Of a stretch of DNA of 64,000 nucleotides, positions 1-19,372 are shown in pieces; position 1 is the stretch's first letter, and the number at the start of each line of letters is the position of its first letter. The notes under the pieces were generated by a model, which saw only the letters and a list, made by a program, of their open reading frames with translations, had not been told where the DNA came from and made no database searches. The stretch covers positions 124,001 through 188,000 of the forward strand of contig JAEUHY010000036.1 in the NCBI GenBank assembly GCA_016795325.1. Direction: 5' to 3'. This stretch comes from Planctomycetota bacterium. Lineage in GTDB: Bacteria; Planctomycetota; UBA1135; GCA-002686595. The position numbers were made by a program, and so were the translations under genes.

Positions 1-1
1 G

Positions 2-187
2 CGGATTTCGGGCGCGGCGCGCGAGAACGCCGCCCTCGGCGACGGAACGCACACGCAGCGCTTCGAGTTCGAGGTGCACGAGGAGCTCGCCGAGCGCGTG
101 CTTGTACTCGAGTTGCGCGCGGCCGCGGGGCGAGCGCGTTGGCGCGATGACGCGCTGACGCTGACGCGCGTCGACGAGTTGCGCTGA
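2..187 (+). CDS. C-terminal fragment of an unidentified protein (cut by window start)
   Basis: An open frame enters from the left edge and stops at TGA 185-187, giving 61 residues ending in VDELR. The residue pattern alternates charged and hydrophobic positions (RFEFEVHEEL, ERVLVLELRA), which suits beta strands of a C-terminal sandwich domain. There is no start in the window and no family can be named. The last codons lie inside the 147-bp tandem duplication that follows, so the gene end has been copied downstream. Confidence 0.55.
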   Translation, partial: RISGAARENAALGDGTHTQRFEFEVHEELAERVLVLELRAAAGRARWRDDALTLTRVDELR

Positions 188-476
188 GCCGCGCCGAGCT
201 CCGGGCAACGGCAAGAGACCAGCGGCACCAGCGCCGAGCGCCCACCAAGGTGCAACTCGGGCGGCGTGGGCGGAGCAGTCCACGTTCGTCGCGACGACGC
301 GCTGACGCTGACGCGCGTCGACGAGTTGCGCTGAGCCACGCCGAGCTGCGGGCAACGGCAAGAGACCAGCGGCGCCAGCGCCGAGCGCCCACCAAGGTGC
401 CGCTCGGGCGGCGTGGGCGGAGCAGTCCACGTTCGTCGCGACGACGCGCCGCGCTCGGTCGAGCTGAGCCGCGCCG
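140..476. repeat. 147-bp tandem duplication, two and a partial third copy
   Basis: The words CGCGCTGACGCTGACGCGCG at 151 and 298, and CACGTTCGTCGCG at 281 and 428, are each exactly 147 bases apart. The unit contains the last codons and stop of the upstream gene plus about 100 bases of spacer. The third copy is degraded after about 445. The copies differ at only a few positions. The repeat fills the whole spacer in front of the L,D-transpeptidase gene, so no other gene is seen there. Confidence 0.85.
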
Positions 477-519
477 CACGCGACTACAGTCGGGCCGCGG
501 CGCGCGCTACCTTGCGCAG

Positions 520-1395
520 ATGCTGCTGCGCCTCGTCATCGTGCTCGTCACCACACTCGGATTCACGCTCGTCACCGCGCCCGCGTCGCTCGCCCAAGAA
601 GCGGCGCCGAGCGCTGTCCAAATCTCCCCGCTCGAGGCGCGTTTCGCCGCAGCGGAGCGCGACCCGGCGCAAGTGGTGCCGCTCATCTTCGAAGTCAGCG
701 CGCACATCCCGACCGTCGACGCCGCCGCTGGTCACGCGCTCGCGGATCGGCTCGAGCCCTTCGCGCGGCGCGCGTTCTTCTCGCCCGAAGCGCTCCCCGG
801 CCAGGAGCGACTTGGATTCATCCAACACAAAGTGGCGAGCGGCGAGCTCCCCGGCGCCATCGCCAAACGCCACCGCTTCGGCGCGGGACTGTTCAAGTAC
901 TGGAACGCGGGCTTTGACGAGCGGCGCATCGGCGCGGGCAAGGAGCTCAAGCTGCTGGACCTCTCGCAGCGCACACCGCAGGTGATCGTCGACAAGCAGC
1001 GCTTCCGCGTGTCGGTGTGGCTCCAGGTTCCCAGCGGCGAGTGGCTGCTCGCGATGTACGTGCCGGTCGGCGTCGGCGCCGCGGAGTCGCCCACGCCGTC
1101 GGGCGTGACCAGCGTGACGAGCCGCGTGCGCGAGCCGCAGTGGACGCACCCCAAGACGCGCGAGGTGTTTCCGCACGGCCACCCCGAGAACGTGCTCGGC
1201 GGTTACTGGATCGCGCTCGACTCCGCGCCGCTCGGCGGACGCACCGGAATCGGCCTTCACGGCTACACCGGCGCTCCGGCGCCGGACTGGATCGAACGCG
1301 GAGCATCGAATGGCTGCATCCGCATGCTGCAGCCCGACATCGACCGTCTGTTCGAGCTCGCGCTCGAGGGCGTGAAGGTCACGCTCACGCCGTGA
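520..1395 (+). CDS. L,D-transpeptidase family protein (YkuD catalytic domain), secreted
   Basis: The 291-residue protein starts with a signal peptide (MLLRLVIVLVTTLGF, then an Ala-rich stretch ending near SLAQ). The C-terminal half carries the YkuD signature: His247-Gly, then SNGCIRM with the catalytic Cys at 266 and Arg at 268. Enzymes of this family make 3-3 cross-links in peptidoglycan or attach proteins to it. The N-terminal half (about residues 30-150) has no motif I recognise. The ATG at 520 was chosen because it begins the signal peptide. The frame is open further upstream, but only through the tandem duplication, which reads as low-complexity Arg-rich sequence. The gene stands alone. 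Confidence 0.85.
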   Translation: MLLRLVIVLVTTLGFTLVTAPASLAQEAAPSAVQISPLEARFAAAERDPAQVVPLIFEVSAHIPTVDAAAGHALADRLEPFARRAFFSPEALPGQERLGFIQHKVASGELPGAIAKRHRFGAGLFKYWNAGFDERRIGAGKELKLLDLSQRTPQVIVDKQRFRVSVWLQVPSGEWLLAMYVPVGVGAAESPTPSGVTSVTSRVREPQWTHPKTREVFPHGHPENVLGGYWIALDSAPLGGRTGIGLHGYTGAPAPDWIERGASNGCIRMLQPDIDRLFELALEGVKVTLTP

Positions 1396-1513
1396 ACTGA
1401 CGCTCGGCGGGCGTTTTTCCGCGTTTTCCTGATCTCCCAGGGCAACCGACTGCGTGTTGGTGGGTGGCGCGGTCGTGGATCGCGCGCTCCGGTCCAAGTC
1501 CGCAGGTTGCCCC

Positions 1514-3991
1514 ATGAAGACGCCGTCGTTCCTTCTCACGTCCCTGGCCGTGAGCGCGTGCAGCGCGCTCGCCGCCGCTCAAGTTCAACCGCGCGTCGAG
1601 CCGCCGCACGCGGCGCCGGCGCCGGATGTGTGGACCACGCCCGACAGCGTGGCGCCGAGTGCAGCCGCCACGCGCACCGCGACGACCAACGCGACGTCGG
1701 ATGGCGCGAACCACGACGTGCGAACGCTGCCGACCTCGGCAGTGAAGGGCCTCGACTTCAGCGTCGTGCGCTACCAGGACGGCGCCGACGGCGCGCTGTG
1801 GGCGCGCGGCCGCACGTACAAGGCGCGCTTCGACGCACAAAGCGCGACGGTGATTCCGTACTTCTCGCCGCGCGCGCCGCGCAACTTCGATCTGCGCTTC
1901 GAACTCGAGAGCGTGAGCGCGGGAAGCGCTGAGCTCGCGTTCGCGCCGCAGGGCGCCGTGTCCCGCCGCGACGACACCGTCACGATCGACCGCGGCGCCG
2001 TCGACGAGCAGTACCTGCTCGCCACCGAACAGCTCGAGCAACGCTTCGTGCTCGAGAGCCTCCCGGGTGTCGGCGATTTGAAGCTGCGCCTGCAGGTCAC
2101 GAGCGAGCTCGAGGGCTCGACGGGCGGCGACGGTTTCCGCTTCGCGAACGAGTGGGGCCACGTGCACTACGGCCGCGCCACCGCGATCGACGCGCGCGGC
2201 GAAACGCTCGCGCTCGAGAGCACCTTGGTCGGCGATCGGATCGAGATCGTCGTCCCCGAGCGTTTCGCGGCGCGCGCCGCGCTGCCGCTGACGATCGACC
2301 CGGTGCTTTCGATCTTCGGCGTCGATGTGAGCAACACGACGGCGTTCAGCGCGGACACGTCGTACGACCTCTCGGGCGGCGGAGTGCTGCATGTCTACAA
2401 CGTCGTGTTCTCGGCGAACGACTACGACGTCGGCAGCTACGCCACGGACCGCTTCGGCAACGTGTGGGGCGGCTCGTTCCTGTGGACGGACTTCACCGGC
2501 GCGCACTGGGTGCGACCGCGCGTGGCCCACAACGGCGCGACGGACAAGTTCCTCATCGCCGCGCAAGTCGGCCAACCGGGCTTCCGCAAGATCTGGGGCC
2601 AGGTGCGCAAGATCTACGACAGCGTCGCTCCGCCGGCGCCGTCGATGATCGGCGGACCGGAGATCGGTGAGCAGACCAACGTCGATGTCGGTGGCGATCC
2701 GTACGGGTTCCTTCCGAGCTACTTCTGCATCGTCTACCAGCGCAACACGAGCGCAACGGAAGGCGACATCCACGCGCGGCTGATCGACACCGCCGGTGTC
2801 TCGAGCAACACGATCGGCACGCTCTTGATCGACAACTCCGGCGGCACGCTCGACGCGTTCCCCGCGATCTCCAAGTCGAACAACACCGCGACGTGGAACA
2901 TTGTGTGGCAGCGCGATCAGAGCGGGATTCCGACCAAGATCCGCGGAGCGCGCGTGTCGTGGTCCGGCGCTGCGGTGGCGACGAGCTTCCAGATCACCAA
3001 CGTTTCGCAGCCCGAGCGTCGGCCTTCGGTGTCGAGCTCGATTTCGGGCGTCGACAACTACATGGTGGCCTGTGAGCGCGACTTCACCAGCGACAACGAC
3101 ATCCAGCTCTACGCTCTCAGCGGAACGACGGTCTCGACCTCCTACAACCTGAGCGGCGCGAACGGGGCGTATCTCTTCAACGACCAGCGCGATCCGTCGA
3201 TCGACAGCGACGGCGCGCATTTCCTGATCGGGTTCCGCGAGTTCGTCGGCAACGTGCCCGGCGTCGGTTGGGCCGGCTGGGACGTGTACGCCAGCGAAGC
3301 GCAGTGGATCTCGAGCGGCATCTCCGTGCGCCAGCACCGCATGGCGCTCGCCACGACCAGCTCCGATGAAGGCGAGCCGCAGGTCGCCTCCGCCGAGAGC
3401 AGCAATCCCGCGCAAGCCCTGGCGGACTACACGGTGATCTACAACCGCGGCATCGAACCCAGCACCGCGGGGCCGACCGACGACGTGTTCGCAGCCCTGG
3501 TCGTGGGTTCCTACGGCGGCGTGATCGCGAATTTCTGCACGCGCAACGAAGTCACCTGCCAGTGCAACTTCGGACCCGGCGTGGGCGGCTGCGCGAACTC
3601 GAGCTTCGCGAGCGGCGCGCACATGGCGGCGGTCAACGCGTCGAGCACGACGAACGATCAGCTGCGCTTCGACATCAGCGGGCTCAAGCCGAACGCGACG
3701 GCGCTCGTGTTCCAGGGCACGAGCACGCTGAACTTCGGCTTCGGCTTCTCGCTGGGCGACGGCGTGCGCTGCGTCGGCGGCACGACGATCCGCTTCGCGC
3801 CCGCCTCCGCGAGCGCCGCTGGCGCGCTCAGCTTCCCGCCGCCCGGCCAACTGCCCATCTCGTGGCAGGGCAGCGTGCCGACCATGGGCGGCTTCTACTA
3901 CTACCAGACCTGGTACCGCGACACGGGCAACTTCTGTTCGGCGGAAGTCACCAACCTCAGCGACGCGCTGATGGTCGAGTGGACTCCGTGA
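1514..3991 (+). CDS. Large secreted protein with planctomycete-type C-terminal domain
   Basis: The 825-residue protein begins with a Sec signal peptide (MKTPSFLLTSLAVSACSALAAAQ). The middle is rich in Gly, Ser, Thr and aromatic residues and looks like beta-propeller or beta-sandwich repeats, without a named motif. The last 120 residues, beginning near a Cys-rich stretch (CTRNEVTCQCNFGPG), match the C-terminal domain seen on four other secreted proteins in this window, with the ending YYQTWYRDTG then NLSDALMVEWTP. Function is unknown; a surface or extracellular role is inferred. The ATG at 1514 starts the signal peptide. A hairpin at 4020-4044 ends transcription. Confidence 0.75.
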   Translation: MKTPSFLLTSLAVSACSALAAAQVQPRVEPPHAAPAPDVWTTPDSVAPSAAATRTATTNATSDGANHDVRTLPTSAVKGLDFSVVRYQDGADGALWARGRTYKARFDAQSATVIPYFSPRAPRNFDLRFELESVSAGSAELAFAPQGAVSRRDDTVTIDRGAVDEQYLLATEQLEQRFVLESLPGVGDLKLRLQVTSELEGSTGGDGFRFANEWGHVHYGRATAIDARGETLALESTLVGDRIEIVVPERFAARAALPLTIDPVLSIFGVDVSNTTAFSADTSYDLSGGGVLHVYNVVFSANDYDVGSYATDRFGNVWGGSFLWTDFTGAHWVRPRVAHNGATDKFLIAAQVGQPGFRKIWGQVRKIYDSVAPPAPSMIGGPEIGEQTNVDVGGDPYGFLPSYFCIVYQRNTSATEGDIHARLIDTAGVSSNTIGTLLIDNSGGTLDAFPAISKSNNTATWNIVWQRDQSGIPTKIRGARVSWSGAAVATSFQITNVSQPERRPSVSSSISGVDNYMVACERDFTSDNDIQLYALSGTTVSTSYNLSGANGAYLFNDQRDPSIDSDGAHFLIGFREFVGNVPGVGWAGWDVYASEAQWISSGISVRQHRMALATTSSDEGEPQVASAESSNPAQALADYTVIYNRGIEPSTAGPTDDVFAALVVGSYGGVIANFCTRNEVTCQCNFGPGVGGCANSSFASGAHMAAVNASSTTNDQLRFDISGLKPNATALVFQGTSTLNFGFGFSLGDGVRCVGGTTIRFAPASASAAGALSFPPPGQLPISWQGSVPTMGGFYYYQTWYRDTGNFCSAEVTNLSDALMVEWTP

Positions 3992-4019
3992 GTTCGATCG
4001 GCGTGAGCTGATCCACGTC

Positions 4020-4044
4020 GCGACGCCGCCCTGCGCGGCGTCGC
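4020..4044. terminator. Hairpin terminator between convergent genes
   Basis: A perfect 10-bp stem (GCGACGCCGC with GCGGCGTCGC) closes a 5-base loop and is followed by TTGCTTTC. It lies between the stop codons of two convergent genes, so it could serve both. Confidence 0.65.
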
Positions 4045-4064
4045 TTGCTTTCGGGCGGCGGTCG

Positions 4065-4451
4065 TCAGGCGCGCGCCTCGCGGACGCCCGGCAGGTACTG
4101 CATGGCGCACACCGCGTTGCCTTCGGTGTCGCGGAACGAGAGCACCGTCCCGACGCCGTCGATGCGGAAGGCCGGGTGCGTGATGGCGCCGCCGTGCTCC
4201 ACGATCGCCGCCTGCGTGCGAGCGACGTCCTCGACGGCGAAGGTGCATTCGAAGCCGCGGACTCCGGCGCCTGAGAGAGGCTCCCGGCGCGACTGGAGTG
4301 CGCCGCTGATTCCGGGTTGGCCGGTGGAGATCAGCCAGAAGCCGGGCGGGCCCCAGGCCTGGAAGGACCAGCCGAAGACCTGGGAGTAGAAGCGCTTGGC
4401 GCGCTCGACGTCGTCGGCGTGGATGGCGAAATGCGAGAGGGGGTTGGGCAT
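4065..4451 (-). CDS. VOC family protein (glyoxalase/bleomycin resistance fold)
   Basis: This 128-residue protein has the usual length of a single VOC domain. It opens with ISHFAIHADDVERAKRFY-like sequence (LSHFAIHADDVERAKRFYSQ), the first beta-alpha unit of the fold with His at position 7, and closes with a strand ending FRDTEGNAVCAMQ, the standard end of the fold. Such proteins include lactoylglutathione lyase-like enzymes, dioxygenases and binding proteins; the substrate cannot be told. Only two or three of the usual metal ligands are evident. The ATG at 4451 was preferred to an upstream in-frame start because the VOC fold begins directly after it. It is divergent from the AraC-type regulator. 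Confidence 0.8.
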   Translation of the reverse strand: MPNPLSHFAIHADDVERAKRFYSQVFGWSFQAWGPPGFWLISTGQPGISGALQSRREPLSGAGVRGFECTFAVEDVARTQAAIVEHGGAITHPAFRIDGVGTVLSFRDTEGNAVCAMQYLPGVREARA

Positions 4452-4700
4452 GGCTGGTTCGAGGTGGCGGGGCGTGGACGGAAACGCGACGGGATGCCGC
4501 ACGGCGCCAGGATCGGGTCCGTCACCCGCCCGCGGCGGCGCGCAGCCGATCGCGCGCGGGTGTGGGACTTGGTTCTGGCTCCGCACCGTGGCGGCGCGGT
4601 CTGCGGGGTGCTCGAACGGCCCGCACGGCGCGGGCGCGAATCGAGACGAGCTCACAGTAAGGGCCTGCCTTGCGTCGTCTACTCGCTAGAATGCCAAGCT

Positions 4701-5516
4701 ATGTCGCGAAAGCGCCACGCAGGCTCCGACGCCGCCGAGCCGGGCCTGAGCGTGCGCACGCTCGCCCTGACGTACCCGAGCGGCTTCCACCAGCCGCCGC
4801 ACAGCCACGACTGGCCGCAGCTCGTCTACGCCGCGTCGGGCGTGCTCACGGTCACCACGGCGGCGGGCGCCTGGGTGGTTCCGCCGCAGCGCGCCGTCTG
4901 GGTTCCGGCGGACACCCGGCACCAGCTCGACACGACCGGCGAGACCGCGCTGCGCACGCTCTACCTCCACCCGCGCGTCGCGCCCGCCCTGGCCGCCGGC
5001 TGCGCCGTCGTGCACATCACGCCGCTCGTGCGCGAGCTCGTGCTCCACATCGTCGCCGCGGGCCCGCTGGAGTTCGATCGCCCCGAGCACACCCACCTGC
5101 TGGCCGTGCTGATCGACCAGCTCAAGACGCTCGACCAGGCCCCGCTGTCCGTGCCGCTCCCGCGCGATCCACGCGCCCGGCGCGTCGCGGAACGCGTGCT
5201 CGCGCGGGCCTCGCAGGCGGACACGCTCGACGAGCTCGCCGCCGGCAGCGGCGCGAGCGCCCGCACGCTCGAACGCCTGTTCCGCGCCGAGACGGGCCTC
5301 CCCTTCGGGCGCTGGCGCCAGCAAGCCCGCCTGCTCGGCGCCCTGCGCCTGCTCGGCGAAGGCCTCGCCGTCACGGCCGTCGCCGCGCGCGTCGGCTACC
5401 GCAGCCCGAGCGCCTTCGTCGCGATGTTCACGCGCGCGCTCGGCCGCTCGCCGGGCCGCTACTTCGACGCGCCGGTCGTACGGAGCCCGGCACGCTCCCA
5501 CCACACTCGCGCGTGA
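4701..5516 (+). CDS. AraC family transcriptional regulator with N-terminal cupin
   Basis: The 271-residue protein has a cupin-like N-terminal half with HQPPHSHDWPQL near residues 30-41 and a strand giving AVWVPADTRHQLD. The AraC double HTH lies at about 175-255 (LDELAAGSGASARTLERLFR and the second helix pair in VAARVGYRSPSAFVAMF). It probably senses a small ligand and acts locally, perhaps on the divergent VOC gene. ATG 4701 is used; the ATG at 4691 is out of frame. The last 13 or so residues are encoded by the left arm of a 97-bp palindromic element, so this tail is probably an add-on. Codons 227-255 are duplicated exactly at 13693-13782. Confidence 0.85.
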   Translation: MSRKRHAGSDAAEPGLSVRTLALTYPSGFHQPPHSHDWPQLVYAASGVLTVTTAAGAWVVPPQRAVWVPADTRHQLDTTGETALRTLYLHPRVAPALAAGCAVVHITPLVRELVLHIVAAGPLEFDRPEHTHLLAVLIDQLKTLDQAPLSVPLPRDPRARRVAERVLARASQADTLDELAAGSGASARTLERLFRAETGLPFGRWRQQARLLGALRLLGEGLAVTAVAARVGYRSPSAFVAMFTRALGRSPGRYFDAPVVRSPARSHHTRA

Positions 5517-5574
5517 CCGTCGTCAACGCCGTGCCTTCGGCGCGAATGTGGTGGGAGCGTGCCGGGCTCCGTAC
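5478..5574. repeat. 97-bp palindromic element, copy A
   Basis: Two 35-base arms (5478-5512 and 5540-5574) pair with one mismatch around a 27-base loop. The inner end of the arm reads CCACCACACTCGCGC and the outer end GTACGG. The same element with identical arm and loop lengths occurs at 19247-19343. It overlaps the 3' end and stop codon of the AraC-type gene and precedes the sigma factor gene. In RNA it would form a very stable hairpin and may act as a terminator. Confidence 0.85.
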
Positions 5575-5687
5575 CCTCGCCGGGGTCCTTCCGCGCAGCA
5601 GAGTGCCTAGCCCGCCCCCTACCCCCACAACGCGCCCGGCCCGCGACCGCCGGTCCGTGCGAAATCGCGCAAATTCTGGTCAGAGCA

Positions 5688-6317
5688 GTGAGACTGCGGG
5701 ACGCTGTGGCGGGTCCTAAGCGTGAGACGGGTTCGGCGGACGCGAACCTCGCCGATGACGCAGCGCTCGTGAGCGCAGTGTTGAAGGGCGAGGCTCGAGC
5801 GCGTTTGGAGTTCGCGGCACGGCTGCGTGTCGTGGCCCGGGTGCTCGATGCGCGCAACCGCCGACTTGGCGCCCCCTTGCGCGATCACGAACTGGAAGAC
5901 GTCTTGCAGGACACTGTCACAAAGATCTGGGAGCACCTCCCCCGCTTCCGGGGGCATGCCGCGTTGGACACCTGGATGTACCCGATCGCGGTCCGCACGC
6001 TTTCCAACGCGCTACGCGAGCGGCGCAACCGCGGCGCCTGGCTGCCCCGGGACCGCGACGTCGATCCGGACCAGCTGTTGGCGGCCGAGGAGGATCTCGC
6101 CGCGGAGTCGGAATCGCTGACCCAAGCACTCGACGAGTTGACGCCGGAGCGCGCGCGCGTCGTCCGCATGCGCCACCTCGACGAGGCATCCTTCGACGAG
6201 ATCGGCGTGCGCCTGGGAGTGCCGCCCGGCACCGCCAAGACGTGGTACTACCGCGCGATCTCCGCGCTGCGCGAGCGACTCGCGCGGCGGAGCGACCGCC
6301 GAGGAGAAGCCCTGTGA
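5688..6317 (+). CDS. ECF-type RNA polymerase sigma factor
   Basis: The 209-residue protein has sigma region 2 at about 28-115 (LEDVLQDTVTKIWEHLPRF, then the -10 recognition helix ALDTWMYPIAVRTLSNALR). Region 4 lies at about 142-200 (LTPERARVVRMRHLDEASFD, then EIGVRLGVPPGTAKTWYYRA). It would direct RNA polymerase to a small set of promoters. GTG 5688 was chosen; GTG 5706, with GCGGGA just upstream, is an alternative. The frame is open back to 5559, but that stretch lies in the palindromic element. The stop overlaps the GTG of the next gene by 4 bases, which fits a sigma/anti-sigma operon. Confidence 0.85.
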   Translation: MRLRDAVAGPKRETGSADANLADDAALVSAVLKGEARARLEFAARLRVVARVLDARNRRLGAPLRDHELEDVLQDTVTKIWEHLPRFRGHAALDTWMYPIAVRTLSNALRERRNRGAWLPRDRDVDPDQLLAAEEDLAAESESLTQALDELTPERARVVRMRHLDEASFDEIGVRLGVPPGTAKTWYYRAISALRERLARRSDRRGEAL

Positions 6318-6982
6318 ATTCGCGGCGACCTTCCGCGCACGACGCGGCGCACGAGTCCGCGCTCGAGGAGTTGTGGGCGTCCGAAGGCGGCGCCCGCACG
6401 CCCGCCGTCGCGCAGCGCCTGAGCGCCTGCGCGCGGTGCGCGGAGCTCTGGGACCAGCTGCAGGCCGCCGAGGCCTCCGCAGCGCGTGTTCTCGGCGAGC
6501 TTCGGCACGACATGGCGCCGCGTTCCAGCGGAGAAGGCGCTCCCGGCGAGGCGCGCCTCGACGCGATGCTCCAGCGCGCCATGGCTGGCCAGAAAAGCCG
6601 CCCGCGCGTGTGGCCGCGCTGGCTCGCAGCGGCGGGGATCGCGCTCGCCGTCGGGCTCGGCCTGCGCTGGGCGCGTGAACCCGATCCGCTCGGATCCGAC
6701 CCCGAACTCGGCGCCACGCTGCGTCTACTCGCACCCGCGGAAGCGACGGACGCGCGCGACAGGTTTCGTTTCGAGGCGCCCGACGACGGCGGCTGGTTCG
6801 TGGTCGAAGTGTTCGACACGCAGGGCGCGCCGTTGCTGCGCTCCGGTCGGCTCGCCGCCTCGCCTTGGTCGCCACAACCCGCCGAGATCGCGCGAATTCC
6901 ACAGCACTTCCGTTGGCAGGTGACCGCCTACGACGCTTCGGGCAACTTCGAGTCGCGCGCCGAGCTGCGGGTCGAGCCGTAG
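6314..6982 (+). CDS. Probable membrane-bound anti-sigma factor
   Basis: The 222-residue protein begins at GTG 6314, overlapping the sigma factor stop by 4 bases (GTGA). Residues 1-60 include Cys39-Ala-Arg-Cys42, a CxxC as in zinc-containing anti-sigma domains, though the full HxxxCxxC motif is not clear. One transmembrane helix lies at about 103-119 (LAAAGIALAVGLGLRWA). The exported part (about 120-222) looks like a small beta-sandwich (FRFEAPDDGGWFVVEVFD). It probably holds the upstream sigma factor at the membrane until a signal arrives. Assignment rests on topology and gene order more than on a strong motif match. Confidence 0.65.
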   Translation: MNSRRPSAHDAAHESALEELWASEGGARTPAVAQRLSACARCAELWDQLQAAEASAARVLGELRHDMAPRSSGEGAPGEARLDAMLQRAMAGQKSRPRVWPRWLAAAGIALAVGLGLRWAREPDPLGSDPELGATLRLLAPAEATDARDRFRFEAPDDGGWFVVEVFDTQGAPLLRSGRLAASPWSPQPAEIARIPQHFRWQVTAYDASGNFESRAELRVEP

Positions 6983-7260
6983 CCGACGGAGGAAGAGGCA
7001 CGTCGTGTGCGCGCGAGGGTCGGGATGTGTCGACTCGAATCGGGATTCGCTGGGCGCGGCGCACAGCGCGAATCCGGCGCGTCACGGCGCGGCGAAGGAG
7101 CTCTCGAGCGGGCTGGTAGCACGTGGCGACGGCGCGGGGCCGAGCAGCGCGTCCGGCGCCGAGCCATCCTCGGCGCCGTTGCGCCCGGCTTCGACGCACT
7201 CCAGGCGCCGCCCCAGGCCACGCAGCCACGCGCTCTCGCGCGCTACGCTCTCCCACGCAA

Positions 7261-9753
7261 GTGAACCGACACGTCCTCGACGCGCTGCTCCAGCTGAGCG
7301 CTTGGGCAGTCTTGGCCACGGCGTCGGTCGCAGCGCAAGCGGACGGGCTCGACGCGTGGCGCGCACGCGCAACCCATGACGCCACGGCGCCGCTCGCGGC
7401 GCGCGTGAGTGCGCTCGAGACTGCTCTGGAACAGGCCCGTGTGACTCCCGAGCAACTGCGAGCTTGGTTGAAGCCGCTGCGCGCCGCTCCGCGCGAAGAC
7501 CAGGCGGCCGAGCTGCTCGCCATCGCCGCGGCCAGCCGCGCCGGGCTCGCGGAGCTCGAAGCCGAACTGCGCCTCGACTTGGCGCAACGCACCTTTACGG
7601 ACGGCAACTGCGCCCAGGCGCAAGCGCTGCTGAGGGCTCTCGACGGGAAGGCCCTTGGCGCGTGGAGCGCGCTCATCGAGCTCGAGCTCGCGCAACTGGC
7701 GCGCTTGAAGCACGAATTCCCCGCCGCGGACGTGCACATCGAACGCGCGCGGGCGGACCTGGAGCCACGCGACGACGAGTATTCGCGGCTGCTGCGTGTG
7801 CACGCGGCGGGTGAGCGCTTGATGCTCGAACTCGAGCTGGGACGCATCGATCACGCCGCGCGCGCTCTCGAACAGATCGAAGCGGCTCAGAGCGCGCTCG
7901 GCGCTTCGCCGGACGCACGTGCGTTCGACGCGCCGCTCACGATCTGGCGCGCCAGCCTGCTCGTCGCGCAGGACGAGCACCGCGCCGCCATCGAGTCCTG
8001 CGACGCGTGGCTCGCCGCGCGCGCCGCTGATCCTCTGACCGATGCCGCCGCCACGCTCGTCGAATATCGGCGCGACTACGCGCGCCTGCTGCTCGCCAGC
8101 GCGCATCGAACGGACGTTCCAGCCGCGATCGCGGCGCTGGAACTGCTCCTGAGTTCGCCCCGACTCGCGCGCTCGGAGCGCTGGCGCGGCTGGCTCGAGA
8201 TCTCCCGCGCGCAGCTGCGCAGCGGCGACGTGTCGGCCGCACAGCGCTCGCTGGCGCGCGCGGACGAACTCTTCGAGTCCGCAACGAGCGACTGCGAACC
8301 GTCGATCCGGCGCACCAGCTTGAAGTTGGCCTTGGCGGCCGAACAACCGCTCGACCGCGCGGCCCTCGACGCCTCGCTCGCAGCGTTCGAGCGCGAGTGG
8401 CGCGCTCTGCTGGCGAGCTGGCGCGCCGTGCCGCGACCGGCGGGAGGCATCGGATGGCTGCACTCGGCGAGCAGTTTGGAGCTGCTGTGCGACTACGCGA
8501 CCGCGCTCGTCGCGCGCCACGGCGACGAACGCGGCGCCGAACTCGCCCTGCAGGCTCTTCTCGACTCTCAGTCGGTCGGATCGCTGGCGCGCGAGCTCGG
8601 CGCTGCGCAGGGCGACTTGATCGAGCTGCGAGCGCGGCTGCTCGAGGACGACGATCACGGCGTGGTCTTGTTCGTGCTCGCGCCCGCACGCTCCATGGCG
8701 TTCGCGGTCGACCGTCGCCGCGTGACGCTGCATGAACTTCCGGGCCGCCTCGCGCTGCGCGCGCTCGTCGAACGAGTGTTCGGCGCAGGCTCGCGCCTCG
8801 ACGTCGCCGCGGACGCCTGCGAAGCGTTCTTTCCCGCCGAGCTCGGCGCGTGGGTGCAAGCCCGTCGGCGCGTGACGCTCGTCGGAGTCGAACAGCTCGG
8901 GCAGGCGCCGTTCGAGCTCTTCGCCCCGCGCGGCGGACAGCCGCTCGGCGTCACGCACGCGCTCGACTACTTGCCTTCGGCGCCGATCGGCCTGTCGCTC
9001 GCGACGCGCGTTCCGCTCGGCGAATTCCACGGCGCCGGCTTGCTCGCGGTTCGCAACCCCTCCGCGAGCGCGCGCGAGCGCTACCCAGACGCGCAACCGC
9101 TCGAGATCCCGCAGTCGAGGCTCGAGGCGTTGCTCGAGCCGTGGGGCGAGACGGCGTTCGCCGCGACGGACGAGGGCGTGGATCTGCGCACGTACGAAGC
9201 GCAGGCAGGTCGACGGCCCTTCGTCGTGCAGTGGCTCACGCACGGCGTGTTCGATCCCCTGCGCGAACCGCCGACGGGGCTCGTGCTCGAGGGCGCTCCC
9301 GATGTGGCCTGGAGCGACGACCTGGCGCGAGTCCCAGCGCCGCCGGTCGTGTTGCTCAGTTGCTGCGGCGGCGCGCGGAGCCAGCTGCGGCGCGGCGAAG
9401 ACGGCGCTCAACAACTCGCGGGCGCGTTCTTTCGCGCCGGCGCTCGCACGGTCGTCGCCACTCCGGCCTCGACTCGACTCTCGTGGGCGCTGGATTTCTC
9501 GGAGCTGTTCCACCGCGAGCTCGCCGAGGGCGTCAGCGTTGCTGAGGCCGCGCGGCGAGCGCGGGCCGAGCTGGCCACGCGCTCCGGCATCGACGCACAG
9601 GCTTGGAGCGCTTGGCAGGTTGTCGGACTGGGCGGCACGCGCGCCGGAACGTCGCGCGGCTCGAGCATGACACCGAGCGTGTTGCTGCTCGCGGCTGCGA
9701 GCGTTGTCGCCGCGCTCCTTGTCCTGCGACGCGTGCGGCGCCTCCCGAGTTGA
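7261..9753 (+). CDS. CHAT-domain (caspase-like) protein with signal peptide and C-terminal membrane anchor
   Basis: The 830-residue protein starts at GTG 7261 with an export signal (VLDALLQLSAWAVLATASVAAQA). Residues about 30-470 are helical, Ala/Leu/Glu-rich and TPR-like. The C-terminal third is a CHAT protease domain: the His motif is LTHG with His661, and the Cys motif is LSCCGG with Cys701/702, followed by AGAFFRAGARTVVAT. The end has one transmembrane helix (SVLLLAAASVVAALLVL) and a basic tail. If exported, the protease would face outward and be anchored. It lies about 280 bases after the sigma/anti-sigma pair on the same strand. Targets are unknown; related CHAT proteins elsewhere include separase-like and cell-death proteases. 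Confidence 0.8.
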   Translation: MNRHVLDALLQLSAWAVLATASVAAQADGLDAWRARATHDATAPLAARVSALETALEQARVTPEQLRAWLKPLRAAPREDQAAELLAIAAASRAGLAELEAELRLDLAQRTFTDGNCAQAQALLRALDGKALGAWSALIELELAQLARLKHEFPAADVHIERARADLEPRDDEYSRLLRVHAAGERLMLELELGRIDHAARALEQIEAAQSALGASPDARAFDAPLTIWRASLLVAQDEHRAAIESCDAWLAARAADPLTDAAATLVEYRRDYARLLLASAHRTDVPAAIAALELLLSSPRLARSERWRGWLEISRAQLRSGDVSAAQRSLARADELFESATSDCEPSIRRTSLKLALAAEQPLDRAALDASLAAFEREWRALLASWRAVPRPAGGIGWLHSASSLELLCDYATALVARHGDERGAELALQALLDSQSVGSLARELGAAQGDLIELRARLLEDDDHGVVLFVLAPARSMAFAVDRRRVTLHELPGRLALRALVERVFGAGSRLDVAADACEAFFPAELGAWVQARRRVTLVGVEQLGQAPFELFAPRGGQPLGVTHALDYLPSAPIGLSLATRVPLGEFHGAGLLAVRNPSASARERYPDAQPLEIPQSRLEALLEPWGETAFAATDEGVDLRTYEAQAGRRPFVVQWLTHGVFDPLREPPTGLVLEGAPDVAWSDDLARVPAPPVVLLSCCGGARSQLRRGEDGAQQLAGAFFRAGARTVVATPASTRLSWALDFSELFHRELAEGVSVAEAARRARAELATRSGIDAQAWSAWQVVGLGGTRAGTSRGSSMTPSVLLLAAASVVAALLVLRRVRRLPS

Positions 9754-9761
9754 GGCGCCGC
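9735..9761. terminator. Hairpin over the end of the CHAT gene
   Basis: A perfect 9-bp stem (GCGGCGCCT with AGGCGCCGC) encloses a 9-base loop. It spans the stop codon and the short gap to the convergent gene, and could terminate in both directions. Confidence 0.5.
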
Positions 9762-9774
9762 ACTCGCGCCGTCG

Positions 9775-11499
9775 CTAACCGCCGCCCGTGCCTCCGCCGT
9801 CGATCGGAGTCCCACCACCCGGCGGCGGGCGAGGCTTGGGAATCACGCCGCCGATGTTCTCGGCCGCCGGAACGGTGGCCAGCGCGGTGTGCTTGGCTTC
9901 GGCGCGTGCGGTTTCGAAGTAGAAGAAGGTCTCGCTCGTGACGCAGCCGCGGTCCGCCAAATCGTCGATCCAGTCGAACACGTTGCCGGTGATCGAAAAC
10001 GCGCCGTACGGCGTCACACGGCTGGGTCCGACGAAACGAGCCACCGCGACAAAGCGGCGGTTGAAGCTCTCGTCGGGCTCGATGGTGGCCGGCACAGCGA
10101 CCGTCACCGTGGCAAAGCGGCCGTTCAGCGCAACCGTCGTGTGCTGCACGGTCTGAACGGGAACTCCGGCGGTGTTGACCGCCTGCACGGCGATTTCGAG
10201 CGCATCCAGACCGGCTGGGTTCAACTCGAGGGGAAGCTCGAAATCCAACTCGAAGGACACCTGCGAACCCAGCGTGTCCGCCGTGCGCTTGGCGTCGGTG
10301 AGCCGCGGCCGCAACAGGCACGCGTTGATCAGCTCGGCCGGATAGGTCACCGACTCCTGAGTCGTCACCAGCGGCATCCACAGGTCGAGGTCGCCGTCGT
10401 TGTCGAAGTCCTCGACGAGAGGCTGCGCACGGTTGGCCGTAAATCCCTGCGAGGGGTCGTTCGTGACGAGCGCGAGGAAGGCGTGCGCGCCCGGCGCGAG
10501 CGAGTACGTCGCTGTGAGCGGCGGCTGAGCGCTCGGCGACGGAAGCAGCAGACCCAGAGTGTGGTTGTAGGAGTGGCTCACGAACAGCGCCGACGGGAGA
10601 CCGGGCGCGAGCGGAGCGGCGGTCATGCCCTGCACGCTCAGCGCCGCCCCGAGTGCGACCGCGGGCTCGCTGCCGCGCCCGTCCGAGACAACCAACGCGC
10701 CGCCGCCCGAGGTGTGGTGCACGATCCAAGCCGCGCGCTGTCGTGCGGCGGGGTCGTCGCGCCACACCGCGAACGCACTCGACGCCGTTGGCCGAAGATC
10801 GTCGAAGTGCGTCACGCCGAGCGCGCAGTCCGAGGCCGAGATCACTTGCAGTCCAGCGTCGCTCAACAGCGCGAGCTCGCGACCCTCGAGCGAAGCGTCC
10901 CATTCGATGGCGGCGAGGCGGCGCAGCGTGGCCGCCGGGGTGAAGGTTCGCGGCGACTCCTCCCAACCGTCGCCGTCGCAGCCCCAGATCGACACGACCG
11001 CGCCATCGGGCGAGGCGGTGGCGATTTCCAGATCGCCGTCGCCGTCCGCGTCGAACGCGGCGACCTGCGACGCGTGACTGTTCGTGGGACCTGCGAACGG
11101 AGTCACTTCGACCGCGCCGGCGGGCGCTGAACTCGAAGCGGCCCACGTCGCCAGGCGCAGCGGGTGCGCCGTGGACGCGATCAGCAAACTGTCGCGGTCA
11201 GCTCCCGCGGGGCGCCACACGTCGAAGTCCGCGACTTGGGCGGCGATCCACTGCGCGCCGCCGTAGAGCGCTGGCGCGTGGGTCAGGTACGCGTCTCCAG
11301 CGCACAAGCTCACCACATCGGCGGTGCGGTCGGCGGTGAAGTCGCCCGCGATGGAACGGCCGCACGATCCAGCCGCGTGCAGCAGTGGCGCGGGCATGGC
11401 CACTCGCTCCGGCGGATACAGGAGCGGCGCCTGCGGATGAGCGGCGGCGAGGCGAGCTGCAAGCAAAGATGAGGACAGCACAAGCAGGTTGAACTTCAT
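9775..11499 (-). CDS. Secreted FG-GAP/VCBS-type repeat protein
   Basis: The 574-residue protein has a signal peptide (MKFNLLVLSSSLLAARLAAA). FG-GAP style calcium-binding repeats are visible: IAGDFTADRTADVVSL, AAFDADGDGDLEIATA and VEDFDNDGDLDLWMPL. These repeats form beta-propeller blades with DxDxDGxxD loops. The C-terminus is Pro/Gly-rich (PRPPPGGGTPIDGGGTGGG) and lacks the C-terminal domain found on other secreted proteins here. The ATG at 11499 begins the signal peptide; frame upstream of it is open but non-signal-like. It may form a leftward unit with the next gene, though a hairpin at 11632-11660 separates them. Confidence 0.75.
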   Translation of the reverse strand: MKFNLLVLSSSLLAARLAAAHPQAPLLYPPERVAMPAPLLHAAGSCGRSIAGDFTADRTADVVSLCAGDAYLTHAPALYGGAQWIAAQVADFDVWRPAGADRDSLLIASTAHPLRLATWAASSSAPAGAVEVTPFAGPTNSHASQVAAFDADGDGDLEIATASPDGAVVSIWGCDGDGWEESPRTFTPAATLRRLAAIEWDASLEGRELALLSDAGLQVISASDCALGVTHFDDLRPTASSAFAVWRDDPAARQRAAWIVHHTSGGGALVVSDGRGSEPAVALGAALSVQGMTAAPLAPGLPSALFVSHSYNHTLGLLLPSPSAQPPLTATYSLAPGAHAFLALVTNDPSQGFTANRAQPLVEDFDNDGDLDLWMPLVTTQESVTYPAELINACLLRPRLTDAKRTADTLGSQVSFELDFELPLELNPAGLDALEIAVQAVNTAGVPVQTVQHTTVALNGRFATVTVAVPATIEPDESFNRRFVAVARFVGPSRVTPYGAFSITGNVFDWIDDLADRGCVTSETFFYFETARAEAKHTALATVPAAENIGGVIPKPRPPPGGGTPIDGGGTGGG

Positions 11500-11631
11500 G
11501 GCGTGGTGCTCGACGAGGCGCCCGTTGGCTCGAGTTGGAGGAGCGAGGCGCGGTCTGGAAGTCGGAGTGAAGCTCGACGCGATTCGAAGACTCGCCGTCC
11601 CTTCGCGCGTCGAAGCGAAGCGTAAGGCGGA

Positions 11632-11660
11632 GCCCCGGCGGTCGCGATGGCCGCCGGGGC
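11632..11660 (-). terminator. Hairpin terminator after the leftward gene at 11687-13573
   Basis: A perfect 10-bp stem (GCCCCGGCGG with CCGCCGGGGC) with a 9-base loop lies just beyond the stop of the gene that ends at 11687. Confidence 0.6.
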
Positions 11661-11686
11661 GTGAGATGTCGTGTCGCGCTCGCAGT

Positions 11687-13573
11687 TCAGAACGCGACCA
11701 GCTCCGAAACGATGGGCGGGCCGGAGACATAGAAGGCCGGCGTCGCTCCGTAGTAGCCGCCCTGGAACGTGATGGCGCCAATCGTCGTGGCCGGGACGAC
11801 TCCGGGGTAGGCGAACACCGGCGCGGCCGGGAGTACACCCAACGCCGTGGACGCGTTGAACACCGGAGTACGCGCTCCGAGGATGCCGACCGTGACCGGG
11901 GGCGGAGGCGTCCAGACGTACGCACCGACTCCGCCGAGGCCGGGTGAGTTGATCGGATCGGCGAAGGTCAGTTGCGTACCCGCTGCGGCGAGCGGCAAAC
12001 CAATCGCCGCCACGTGCGTGCCGAGACCAGGGACGGGATTCGCGTAGCCGACGAGCGCAGCGGGCACGCTGGGCAGGCCGAACAGCGCGGACGCTCCCGA
12101 GAAGATGTTGAGCGCCGTCGACACGTTTCCGCCGATCGGCGAGGCGACGTTGAGAGTCAGCGTCGGCGCAGCGGCGCCGGCAGCGATGGTGTAGGTGAGC
12201 AAGTTCCCCGCGCCGCTGTCGGCCACCACGTAGTTCGCTCCGCCGGGCAGATTCCACGGTCGATCCGTCGCGAGCAGGTCCACGCCGCCGGCGAGAGGCG
12301 CGCTCGTGGTGAGCGAGCCGAGCGGCGTTGCGCCGCCGAGTCCGACAGCGACCACGAATTGTCGGCCCGTGCTCGAGTCGGCGGCGAACGCCGTCACGAC
12401 GCTGCCGCCAGCCGGGCGCGCGAGTTCCGGATTGCCGAAGGCGCCGATCAGCGCCGGACCGGCATTCAGCGCAACCGTCGTGGGCAGCGTGGCTGCCGCG
12501 GGGCTGCCACGCAGGAGACCCAAGGCTCCTGCGGTCGGGATCCCACCACCCGGCGCGCTCGGAGTGGACACGGGAATCACCGCGACTGCGAAGCCGCCGG
12601 TGAGCGAGACCGCCGGCTCGCTGAAGCCGGGCGAGAGCGCACGGCCGACGCCGAACGGATCGCCGCCGGTGTACGCCGCCACTCCGGTGGTCGAGTTGAA
12701 CGCGCCCCAACCATGTCCGCTGATGGGACCGGGACGCGCCAGCCCGAACACGGTGTTCTGTCCTCCGATGGCGTTGAATCCCAGCGCGATGTTCGAACCG
12801 ACTTGGTAGCGCACGCCCGTTCCCGGAACGAACGGCGTCAGCGCAGACGTGGTGGACGTTCCTGCGGTGACGTTGATGTTCCCGATCGCGTTGAGCAGCG
12901 GAACGATCAGGCGGTTGGTGGCCGCATCAAACGTCATGCGCGTCGCGAACGGCGTGGGCGCTTGGTTGAAGCTGAAGCGGTTGACGAGCGTCGCTGGCGC
13001 TCCCGGCGTCAGCTGCAGCTGCTCCACCACCGTCCGTGCGGCGGCGCCGCCCAAGCCGTTGCTGAATTCGACGAAGACCGTTCCGGTCGCGCCGACAGAG
13101 ATCATGTCGTAGTCGAACCTGGCGCCCTGCGCGCTGAACATCGTGAGCACGCACGACACGCCCGCTGACGAGCATGAGCCTGGGACGAAGTGGGCCGACT
13201 CGACCGAGAGCGTGTTCACGCCGCCTACCGAGAAGACCGTGGGGACGAGAATGTGCGGCACCGGTGTGACGCCGTCGTATGCGAGAGTCGGAGCGACCTC
13301 GAAGCGCGACTGGAGCGCTCGACGGTTGTGCTGGTTCGAGATCTGCCCGGTGAGTGTGACCACGTTCGTGGCCGTCGCCGGAGGTGCGAAGAAGCCCGGA
13401 TCCGGGTTGTGAACGATCAGCTGGTCAGGACCAGCCGCGAGTCGTTCGACGAACACGTAGAAGCCGTTGTTGCCCGGGGCCGTGGGAAGTGACTGAGCGG
13501 CCGTTGCGTAGGTCGGCAGCGCGCTCGCGGACAGCAGCGCGACGAGCGCGCCGCTGGAGAGAAGTCGAGACAT
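11687..13573 (-). CDS. Large secreted protein of unknown function
   Basis: The 628-residue protein begins with a signal peptide (MSRLLSSGALVALLSASALP, cleavage near TAAQS). A GGAG lies 7 bases before the ATG on the minus strand. The body is Gly, Ala, Val and Pro rich with few charges, and contains phrases such as GFYVFVERLAAGPDQLIVHN and VFVEFSNGLGG. It looks like a repetitive beta protein but no known repeat is recognised. It ends IVSELVAF, unlike the shared C-terminal domain. Its upstream region holds the 90-bp copy of the AraC gene segment. Confidence 0.65.
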   Translation of the reverse strand: MSRLLSSGALVALLSASALPTYATAAQSLPTAPGNNGFYVFVERLAAGPDQLIVHNPDPGFFAPPATATNVVTLTGQISNQHNRRALQSRFEVAPTLAYDGVTPVPHILVPTVFSVGGVNTLSVESAHFVPGSCSSAGVSCVLTMFSAQGARFDYDMISVGATGTVFVEFSNGLGGAAARTVVEQLQLTPGAPATLVNRFSFNQAPTPFATRMTFDAATNRLIVPLLNAIGNINVTAGTSTTSALTPFVPGTGVRYQVGSNIALGFNAIGGQNTVFGLARPGPISGHGWGAFNSTTGVAAYTGGDPFGVGRALSPGFSEPAVSLTGGFAVAVIPVSTPSAPGGGIPTAGALGLLRGSPAAATLPTTVALNAGPALIGAFGNPELARPAGGSVVTAFAADSSTGRQFVVAVGLGGATPLGSLTTSAPLAGGVDLLATDRPWNLPGGANYVVADSGAGNLLTYTIAAGAAAPTLTLNVASPIGGNVSTALNIFSGASALFGLPSVPAALVGYANPVPGLGTHVAAIGLPLAAAGTQLTFADPINSPGLGGVGAYVWTPPPPVTVGILGARTPVFNASTALGVLPAAPVFAYPGVVPATTIGAITFQGGYYGATPAFYVSGPPIVSELVAF

Positions 13574-13692
13574 GGTGAACTCCGTGGTTGCACCCGACAC
13601 CGTGTCGGGCTCGACGGCGTTCGGCACGGCGCACGCCGCGCGCGTCTCAACTTTCGCGAAATCCCTGGCGCCAGATCCGCCGGGTGTTCGGG

Positions 13693-13782
13693 CGTCGCCG
13701 CGCGCGTCGGCTACCGCAGCCCGAGCGCCTTCGTCGCGATGTTCACGCGCGCGCTCGGCCGCTCGCCGGGCCGCTACTTCGA
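13693..13782 (+). pseudogene. 90-bp displaced copy of the AraC HTH coding region
   Basis: Bases 13693-13782 are identical, 90 of 90, to 5378-5467 inside the AraC-type gene (codons 227-255, second HTH helix pair). The copy has no start and is not expressed as a gene. Similarity stops sharply at both ends. Its right end supplies the TAG stop codon (minus strand, 13774-13776) of the lipoprotein gene next to it, and the rest lies upstream of the gene starting at 13573. Confidence 0.9.
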
Positions 13783-14421
13783 AAGCTCGGCTTCGGGCTG
13801 AGCGGGCGGCTTGCGGCGCCGCAGCTCGAAGATCGTCGCGTCGAACTGGTGGCGGATGAGGCCGGGGTTCCACAGCGTCGGGCGCACGCTCGGCGGATCG
13901 GCGAACAGGCCCTCGAGGTCGCGCCACAGCTCGAGCGGGGCGACGGCGCGAGTCCACTCCCAATCGTCTTCGAACTTCGCCGGGAAGTTCGCGAGCGAGA
14001 CCGCGCCGATCTCGGCGCAACTGAGCCAATCGCCGTCGTGCACGACGATCCGGCGGACAGCTGCGTCCACGGACGGCTCGCCGACTTCGTAGTCGTAAGC
14101 GATCGGGGCCGCCTTGCCGCTCACAATGCGCGCGACCCGCTCCGCTCCTAGTTCGAGTTCCTCACTCGCGACACGCACCTGACCGGACGCGCGGTCTTCG
14201 TCGCGCCACTCGAGCAAGCCGCGGCCGCTGTCCCAGACCGTCAGCGTCCAGCCGTAACCGCCAGCGAGCCCCGGATCGACGCTCGCGATGAAACGAGGCG
14301 GCGCCAGTCCGGCATCCTGGGCCACGGCGCGCGGCGCGGAGTTCGGCGGCGAGCACGCGGTCCACACCGCGACGGCCGCCAGTGCGATCGCCCGACTGAG
14401 CGGGAAGCGGTGAGAGCGCAT
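13774..14421 (-). CDS. Putative lipoprotein, paralogue of the next gene
   Basis: The 215-residue protein has a short basic N-terminus, a hydrophobic segment (AIALAAVAVWTACS) and a Cys that could be lipidated, although TAC is not the best lipobox. A core motif YGWTLTVWDSGRGLLEWR is shared with the neighbour at 14429-15061, and so is an ERVARI helix after it. The family is unknown. The last codons and the TAG stop are encoded at the edge of the duplicated AraC segment, so the C-terminus (ending RKPPAQPEAELSK) may have been changed recently by that insertion. Confidence 0.65.
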   Translation of the reverse strand: MRSHRFPLSRAIALAAVAVWTACSPPNSAPRAVAQDAGLAPPRFIASVDPGLAGGYGWTLTVWDSGRGLLEWRDEDRASGQVRVASEELELGAERVARIVSGKAAPIAYDYEVGEPSVDAAVRRIVVHDGDWLSCAEIGAVSLANFPAKFEDDWEWTRAVAPLELWRDLEGLFADPPSVRPTLWNPGLIRHQFDATIFELRRRKPPAQPEAELSK

Positions 14422-14428
14422 CGGGCCG

Positions 14429-15061
14429 TCAGTCTCCCTGCTCGCGGTACGCGCGGACGTCCTCGTGGTACGGGCCCTTGCGATACAGCGGGCGCGACCC
14501 TCCACCAACTCCCACACGGCTCGACGGGTCCTCGAAGAGACTCTCGACCTGCCACCAAAGCTCCAACACGTCAGCGACCTGCTCGCGTCGCTCAGCGGTC
14601 GTGTACTCCTGCGGTGAGAGGATCGGGCTCACGCTCGCCAGTCTGGCCGCGCCAACGCGTCCCGCGTGCCGCACCACGAGCCGGCACTCCGTGGCGTCAT
14701 CGAACCGCGAACCCACGTCGCCGGATGCGCTCACACGCTCGTACGCGTTCTTCATGATCTCGGCGACCCGTTCGGCGTCGACATCGAGTTCCTCACGCCA
14801 GACCCGGTACTTGTCGTTCAACGCTGGGTCTCGCTGGCGCCACTCGAGCACCGCGCGACCGCTTGCCCAGATCGTGAGATTCCAGCCGTAGGTCCGTACG
14901 GTTAGACCGTTACAAACGTTCGCGATGAGCACCGGCGCTTCGAGCGCGGGAGCCGATGCCGCGATCGGCGGCGGCTGCGCCGGCGAGCACGCGCCGACGA
15001 AAGCCAGCCCAGCGGCCAGCGCTGCGAGTTTCGAACGAACGCAGCGGCGAGCGAGCGGCAT
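14429..15061 (-). CDS. Putative lipoprotein, tandem paralogue
   Basis: The 210-residue protein has a signal segment ending LAFVGACSPAQ, a good lipobox (VGAC). The motif YGWNLTIWASGRAVLEWRQ and the helix VDAERVAEI match the downstream gene, so the two arose by tandem duplication. They are 7 bases apart and surely cotranscribed. Both look like a small domain presenting one strand pair and a helix. No known family is recognised and no catalytic residues stand out. Confidence 0.65.
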   Translation of the reverse strand: MPLARRCVRSKLAALAAGLAFVGACSPAQPPPIAASAPALEAPVLIANVCNGLTVRTYGWNLTIWASGRAVLEWRQRDPALNDKYRVWREELDVDAERVAEIMKNAYERVSASGDVGSRFDDATECRLVVRHAGRVGAARLASVSPILSPQEYTTAERREQVADVLELWWQVESLFEDPSSRVGVGGGSRPLYRKGPYHEDVRAYREQGD

Positions 15062-15185
15062 GCTGCGCGCAATCCTAGGCGAGAATTCTCGAAGTCGTTG
15101 TCGATCCGCGCGGGGTCCGCTCGTCCAGCTCCGTGAAACGAACCCATGGTGGGTTCGAGACCTCGACAACACACTGGAGCGAACC

Positions 15186-15539
15186 ATGCCGAACTACATG
15201 CTGCTGCTGCACGACGATCCCAAGGCTTTCGGACCCCACATCACGCCCGCGCAGATGCAGGCCGTGCTCGCCGAGTACCAGGCCTGGGCGGGCAAGCTCG
15301 CCGGCGAAGGACGGCTGCTCGGCGGCGAGAAGCTGCGCGACAACGGCGGCAAGGTGATGACGCTCTCGGGCGGCAAGCCGCGCGTCGTCGACGGCCACTA
15401 CGCCGAAGCGAAGGAAGTGATCGGCGGTTACTTCACGATCAGCGCCGACAACTACGACCACGCGGTCAAGCTGTGCCTGGACTGCCCGCACCTGAAGTAC
15501 GGGGCGCGCATCGAGGTGCGCGAAGTCGAGCCGACGTGA
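15186..15539 (+). CDS. YCII/DGPF domain protein
   Basis: The 117-residue protein is a complete YCII-related (DGPF) domain: it opens MPNYMLLLHDDP and continues through GKLAGEGRLLGGEKL, the strand PRVVDGHYAEAKEVIGGYF and an end with IEVREVEP. The known family is named for a DGPF-like turn, here VDGHYAEAKE. DGPF proteins are regularly encoded beside ECF42 sigma factors, as here. The stop overlaps the GTG of the sigma gene by 4 bases, so translation is coupled. The biochemical role of the family is not firmly known. Confidence 0.85.
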   Translation: MPNYMLLLHDDPKAFGPHITPAQMQAVLAEYQAWAGKLAGEGRLLGGEKLRDNGGKVMTLSGGKPRVVDGHYAEAKEVIGGYFTISADNYDHAVKLCLDCPHLKYGARIEVREVEPT

Positions 15540-19239: not shown

Positions 19240-19246
19240 CGCGGTC

Positions 19247-19343
19247 GTACGGCGCCAAGCACGCTTCCACCACATTCGCGCCGACGGCGACGCGCTGCCC
19301 ACGGTTGCGCGCGAATGTGGTGGGAACGTGCTTGGCGCCGTAC
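19247..19343. repeat. 97-bp palindromic element, copy B
   Basis: Arms 19247-19281 and 19309-19343 are 35 bases each around a 27-base loop, the same lengths as copy A at 5478-5574. They pair at 33 of 35 positions, with one further G-U wobble possible. Compared with copy A, three base pairs in the middle of the stem have changed on both arms while keeping pairing. It lies directly after the FG-GAP gene stop and before the permease gene. Confidence 0.85.
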
Positions 19344-19372
19344 GCGCACGCGCGTCCGCTATCTTCGAGCGC

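Follow-up and report, generated by a model that had tools for sequence, protein, structure and literature searches.

The window analysed here, a stretch of 64,000 nucleotides (nt) of contig JAEUHY010000036.1 from a Planctomycetota bacterium (assembly GCA_016795325.1), carries four adjoining genes that form a conserved unit of this phylum. It consists of genes for an extracytoplasmic function (ECF) sigma factor, an anti-sigma factor and an exported protein that joins a tetratricopeptide repeat (TPR) region to a CHAT domain, usually with a convergent gene for an exported FG-GAP protein downstream. The first-pass annotation of this DNA had described an ECF sigma/anti-sigma pair, overlapping by GTGA and followed by an exported CHAT protein, and the three genes were found as described, with domain matches above the cut-off for the sigma factor and for CHAT. 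Its boundary at position 9753 has to be moved, as it leaves out the conserved fourth member at 9775-11499.

To follow the unit beyond the window, 61 related genomes were searched for CHAT proteins. Homologues were present in 35 genomes, and 63 homologues from the same taxonomic order were read together with their surroundings. An ECF sigma gene lies directly upstream and on the same strand at 56 of these 63 CHAT loci, and an anti-sigma gene likewise at 56/63; some of the loci that deviate lie at contig ends. The recurrence of sigma, anti-sigma and CHAT genes in this arrangement is far above chance, because the arrangement is the same in 56/63 loci and is accompanied by an exact 4-nt overlap of the sigma and anti-sigma genes in 43/54. 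The retention of the trio in relatives, on which the first-pass annotation had made its reading depend, is thus confirmed. Elsewhere in the phylum the four-gene unit was met in at least seven further families, and the FG-GAP family was detected in 15/294 sampled genomes of the phylum outside the order. When 20 loci, mainly from other families of the phylum, were refetched with full flanks, 17 had the sigma, anti-sigma and CHAT genes with a convergent FG-GAP gene; the others were one locus without a recognisable anti-sigma gene, one with all four genes co-directional, and one kinase variant.

The unit is often duplicated. The genome of the window has seven CHAT genes, six of which lie, from a reading of the loci, in sigma/anti-sigma/CHAT/FG-GAP modules, and one 8.4-Mb genome carries about 19 module copies. 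Of these, 15 have all four genes (14 convergent, one co-directional); the remaining four are two with CHAT and a co-directional FG-GAP gene, one kinase variant, and one unassigned copy. Protein trees from 44 complete loci were correlated for every pair of the four proteins (pairwise r of 0.47-0.71, p ∼0.0005 for each pair, with 0/2000 permutations reaching the observed value). These correlations indicate that the module is inherited as a unit, with a contribution from shared species history. Two further loci of the genome of the window were recorded. On contig C24 (L039:2546-17218) two modules adjoin, one of which has all four genes co-directional and an FG-GAP tail reading IHRRKRIRPIGPPPPQ. 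The strongest CHAT match of the genome is a 1142-amino acid (aa) protein (G000:C61:21044-22024; L001, L038) whose gene is flanked by neither a sigma nor an anti-sigma gene.

The sigma factor gene (5688-6317, forward strand) has a GTG start, the exact position of which is uncertain, and codes for 209 aa. Its product matched Sigma70_r2 (PF04542, residues 66-113) and Sigma70_r4_2 (PF08281, residues 142-194), both above the Pfam cut-off, and the NCBIfam model TIGR02937 (E 1e-21, also above cut-off). It has sigma-70 regions 2 and 4 without large other domains, as the ECF definition demands; no specific equivalog scored above the cut-off among the 25 NCBIfam matches listed. The GTGA at 6314-6317 joins the sigma stop (TGA) to the start (GTG) of the next gene (6314-6982, forward strand), which codes for 222 aa. 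This protein matched no Pfam family, and its NCBIfam 'antisigma' match was weak (E 0.0017, below cut-off). It has a predicted cytoplasmic N-terminus with a CxxC motif, one transmembrane helix near residue 104 and a periplasmic domain of ∼100 aa, and from its position, its topology and the weak NCBIfam match it is identified as a putative anti-sigma factor. The coupling of its gene to that of the sigma factor, the single transmembrane helix and the periplasmic domain are those of a class I membrane anti-sigma factor. Among its homologues the transmembrane helix is present in 54/54 and the CxxC motif in just 16/54.

The third gene (7261-9753, forward strand) codes for 830 aa. Its product matched the CHAT domain PF12770 of clan CD (E 6e-21, residues 523-789). 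Structures of this protein and of the FG-GAP protein were predicted, each from an alignment of four sequences. The CHAT model has a helical, TPR-type superhelix at about residues 45-460 followed by the CHAT region, and weak Pfam TPR matches occur in CHAT homologues. A hydrophobic helix (residues 806-826) is followed by RRVRRLPS, which together with the model domains gives a predicted topology of signal peptide, outside domain and C-terminal transmembrane anchor. The profile and the model thus agree with the layout proposed in the first-pass annotation. A C-terminal membrane helix was found in 33/49 homologues, so that the anchor is common without being universal. The catalytic residues had been proposed as His661 with Cys701 or Cys702; all 63 same-order homologues and 30/30 more distant CHAT proteins have His661 and Cys702, and Cys701 can be dropped. 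The loss of this pair in homologues, which had been named as an outcome that would speak against the proposed reading, did not occur, since 93/93 proteins keep it despite overall identities that are often below 30%. With a profile match above cut-off and the catalytic His/Cys pair, the product is assigned, by sequence, to the CHAT peptidase family. The predicted topologies place the CHAT domain and the sensor part of the anti-sigma factor on one and the same membrane side. Fold matches of the model include separases, peptide-binding TPR proteins of the Rap/NprR type and the transmembrane anti-sigma factor DdvA, to which we return below. A sequence search of the PDB returned nothing related for the CHAT domain alone, and TPR proteins only for the whole protein.

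The fourth gene (9775-11499, reverse strand) codes for a 574-aa protein that matched FG-GAP_3 (PF13517, E 2e-7). It has a signal peptide, an FG-GAP/beta-propeller region, a beta domain at about residues 399-502 and a Pro/Gly-rich C-terminal tail, GGVIPKPRPPPGGG. FG-GAP repeats were detected in most members of this family (PF13517 in 26/30 and PF01839 in 15/30). The gene downstream of CHAT is convergent in 53/60 loci, and in 52/60 it belongs to one homologous exported family. As a control for abundance, the family profile was searched through the 61 whole genomes, a strong match being one with E 3e-23 or better. Of the 76 strong members listed, 66 lie next to a CHAT gene and run towards it, and generic FG-GAP proteins stand apart with far weaker matches (E above 1e-22). 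Because the generic proteins match so weakly and the strong members adjoin CHAT in this way, the explanation that FG-GAP proteins are simply abundant was rejected. The tails contain 36% proline plus glycine, versus 16% elsewhere in the protein, and share the motif GG-x-[VI]-P-R-P-x-L-x-P-[FP], which reached an expectation-maximization (EM) score of 181 versus 124-133 for shuffled tails, the sequences being homologous rather than independent. The tail may serve as a ligand or as a cleavage site. A Foldseek search with the FG-GAP model gave generic propeller-type matches (DDB1, BBSome) and, given the low confidence of the model, was set aside. Another FG-GAP gene of the window (16768-19239) lies outside the family found in the module; it contains paired direct repeats of 126-128 nt (16941-17403, 90-91% identity).

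The anti-sigma and CHAT genes are separated here by an unusually long gap of 278 nt (6983-7260, forward strand), for which the first-pass annotation had suggested a promoter of its own. This is unlikely to be a general feature, as the gap is exceptional. The median spacing over 49 loci is −22 nt, it is 14 nt in a relative of the same genus, and in most relatives CHAT starts at or within the 3′ end of the anti-sigma gene. Together with the 4-nt sigma/anti-sigma overlap, this indicates that the trio is usually one operon. Promoters were searched for by dyad counts and EM motif discovery in the regions preceding 55-93 sigma genes and 51-93 FG-GAP genes. A single candidate, AACC-N14-GACA, emerged upstream of 5/55 sigma genes, versus 0.14 expected from shuffles; it did not reappear when the set was enlarged or when a single genome was analysed, and it was absent upstream of the FG-GAP genes.

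Variant loci help to define which parts of the unit belong together. The 30 more distant CHAT proteins comprise a second lineage and 23 members of the first lineage, mostly from other families of the phylum. In the second lineage, which is single-copy where sampled (L130-L136, seven genomes of the same family), sigma, a long anti-sigma (350-416 aa where called) and CHAT genes occur without FG-GAP. In most of these loci a small exported protein of ∼190 aa is encoded downstream of CHAT in the place of FG-GAP, and five of these small proteins end in Pro-rich tails of the HVPVITP...PP...LPPV type. At L127:1543-4603 the sigma and anti-sigma genes are directly convergent with an FG-GAP gene, and CHAT is missing. 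At L160:6470-10935 (L101:90-4157) an ECF sigma gene is followed by one that codes for a Ser/Thr kinase of 740 aa. Convergent with these is a gene of the FG-GAP family, the product of which has a tail (GGFVPQA...) that matches the CHAT-linked tails of the same genome. In other ECF groups a kinase of this sort is the usual kind of regulator. Here the kinase replaces both anti-sigma and CHAT, whereas FG-GAP is retained, and by this exchange CHAT belongs to the regulator side. From the variant loci it follows that CHAT goes with the sigma/anti-sigma pair where FG-GAP is lacking, and that FG-GAP goes with sigma where CHAT is lacking.

The closest known counterpart is Craspase, in which the TPR-CHAT protease Csx29, associated with a type III-E CRISPR (clustered regularly interspaced short palindromic repeats) system, acts with Csx30 and CASP-sigma, and frees the sigma factor inside the cell by cutting its inhibitor (PMC10028731). 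As in the present module, a TPR-CHAT cysteine protease is encoded beside an ECF-type sigma factor and its inhibitor. Craspase, however, is cytoplasmic and RNA-gated by Cas7-11, whereas in the module CHAT is an exported protein, the inhibitor a membrane-spanning one, and FG-GAP is added as a fourth member. A search for a CRISPR-cas context found none: none of eight neighbours belongs to a defence family, and window positions 1-20000 contain no CRISPR-like array. Csx29 was not among the fold matches listed for the CHAT model, from which no conclusion is drawn. A second counterpart is ECF54, which has CHAT, subtilase and carboxypeptidase neighbours and was described without an anti-sigma factor, proteolytic control being proposed (PMC8999054). 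The likeness lies in CHAT proteins conserved near an ECF sigma factor; unlike ECF54, the loci studied here nearly always have a membrane anti-sigma factor and add the FG-GAP partner.

Membrane anti-sigma factors under regulated proteolysis are familiar from RseA, with DegS and RseP, and from the RsiW type. The present anti-sigma factor resembles them in having a membrane-bound form with a periplasmic part, for which an outside site-1 cut is proposed; the site-1 role is here proposed for an operon-encoded, caspase/separase-like CHAT protein, in contrast to DegS, PrsW or signal peptidase. In the DdvS/DdvA system of Myxococcus xanthus (8rot, 8rw5), the transmembrane anti-sigma factor has a large TPR-type part like that of the CHAT protein. 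This part aligned with the CHAT model at Z 15 over 405-414 residues, reaching the start of the CHAT region, and TPR matches at such Z values may reflect the common repeat fold only. In DdvA the TPR region lies within the anti-sigma protein itself, whereas here anti-sigma and TPR-CHAT are separate genes. In the openly available full texts, subscription papers being beyond the scope, no paper was found that combines CHAT, an ECF sigma factor, a membrane anti-sigma factor and FG-GAP. The remark of the first-pass annotation that it knew of no description of an outward-facing CHAT protease tied to a sigma circuit has to be qualified in view of CHAT beside ECF54 (PMC8999054) and of the intracellular TPR-CHAT protein of Craspase (PMC10028731).

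We tentatively favour, at somewhat less than an even chance, a reading in which CHAT, as a periplasmic protease, belongs to the input side and helps to inactivate the anti-sigma factor. Since the CHAT active site and the sensor part of the anti-sigma factor are both predicted to lie outside, the proteins are co-produced and the catalytic pair is invariant, the simplest explanation would be that CHAT cuts an outside neighbour, either the anti-sigma factor or the FG-GAP protein. The modelled likeness of the TPR part to peptide-gated Rap/NprR proteins and to separase may count in the same direction, as may, by analogy, the precedent of Craspase. The anti-sigma factor would keep the sigma factor inactive until the FG-GAP protein, or a partner bound to it, engaged the TPR superhelix and activated CHAT; a site-1-type cut in the periplasmic part of the anti-sigma factor would follow, an RseP-type protease would complete its degradation, and the freed sigma factor would transcribe its own operon and further targets. 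The genome encodes M50 site-2-type proteases that are candidates for the second cut. Several observations weigh against this sequence of events. The CHAT model has a mean pLDDT (predicted local distance difference test score) of 65, with a good TPR superhelix and much of the catalytic domain poor, and the FG-GAP model is poor (pLDDT 49.5). No promoter motif common to sigma and FG-GAP genes was established by the dyad and EM searches. The locus that lacks CHAT implies that the module can at times do without it, the argument from the kinase draws on a single locus, and the same type of tail in that kinase locus weakens the tail as a CHAT-specific ligand.

The presence of CHAT within the sigma operon, almost always adjoined by FG-GAP, would also suit a protease that is an output of the sigma regulon and processes FG-GAP, for instance at its tail, for surface display or release, while the anti-sigma factor senses something else. 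The conserved linear motif in the disordered tail fits such a substrate, as does the second lineage, where CHAT is followed by a different exported protein with a likewise Pro-rich tail. We consider this role less likely, though the main competitor, as FG-GAP with the same type of tail persists where CHAT is absent or swapped for a kinase, and the second lineage keeps CHAT without FG-GAP. CHAT proteases also occur in bacterial conflict systems, Csx29 being an example, and the copy number of the module is high and variable. The sigma factor could then detect attack and the exported protease kill or damage either its own cell or a competing one, FG-GAP being the target or the partner that gives immunity. 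A defence system was looked for, and PADLOC matched neither the four module proteins nor the eight neighbours; the window region already mentioned has no CRISPR-like array. A regulatory role agrees better with the stable gene order and with inheritance alongside an anti-sigma factor of the sensor type, which makes a conflict module improbable. Least probable of all, by a small step, is that CHAT does not cut and serves as a sensor or scaffold, its TPR part binding the anti-sigma factor. The superhelix, which is modelled best, resembles signal-gated regulators, and DdvA has a similar region, but a non-catalytic scaffold would not need the His/Cys pair kept in every homologue.

The surroundings of the module were also recorded. 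Just upstream, on the other strand, lie an AraC-type regulator with a cupin domain and a glyoxalase-family gene (4317-5516 and 4065-4655). At 143-436 of the window a 147-nt tandem repeat (96% identity) overlaps the start of a YkuD (L,D-transpeptidase) gene.

The module suggests a previously unrecognised form of gene activation through protein cutting outside the cell. In its full form, to which we give less credence than to CHAT as an input, dozens of paralogous Planctomycetota modules might each use a secreted beta-propeller to control a periplasmic separase/caspase-like protease, which would cut the anti-sigma factor and turn on a dedicated sigma factor. Bacterial caspase-like CHAT proteases are known mostly from the cytoplasm, in conflict systems. 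If this picture is true, the module would be an extracytoplasmic counterpart of Craspase, and CHAT a new class of site-1 protease. A much-duplicated unit with a periplasmic CHAT protein beside an anti-sigma factor suggests a third proteolytic architecture of sigma control, besides the DegS/PrsW type and Craspase. The signals of the very many ECF sigma factors encoded by planctomycetes are unknown, and to one group of these factors the module offers a defined, testable input in the form of the protease and its FG-GAP partner.

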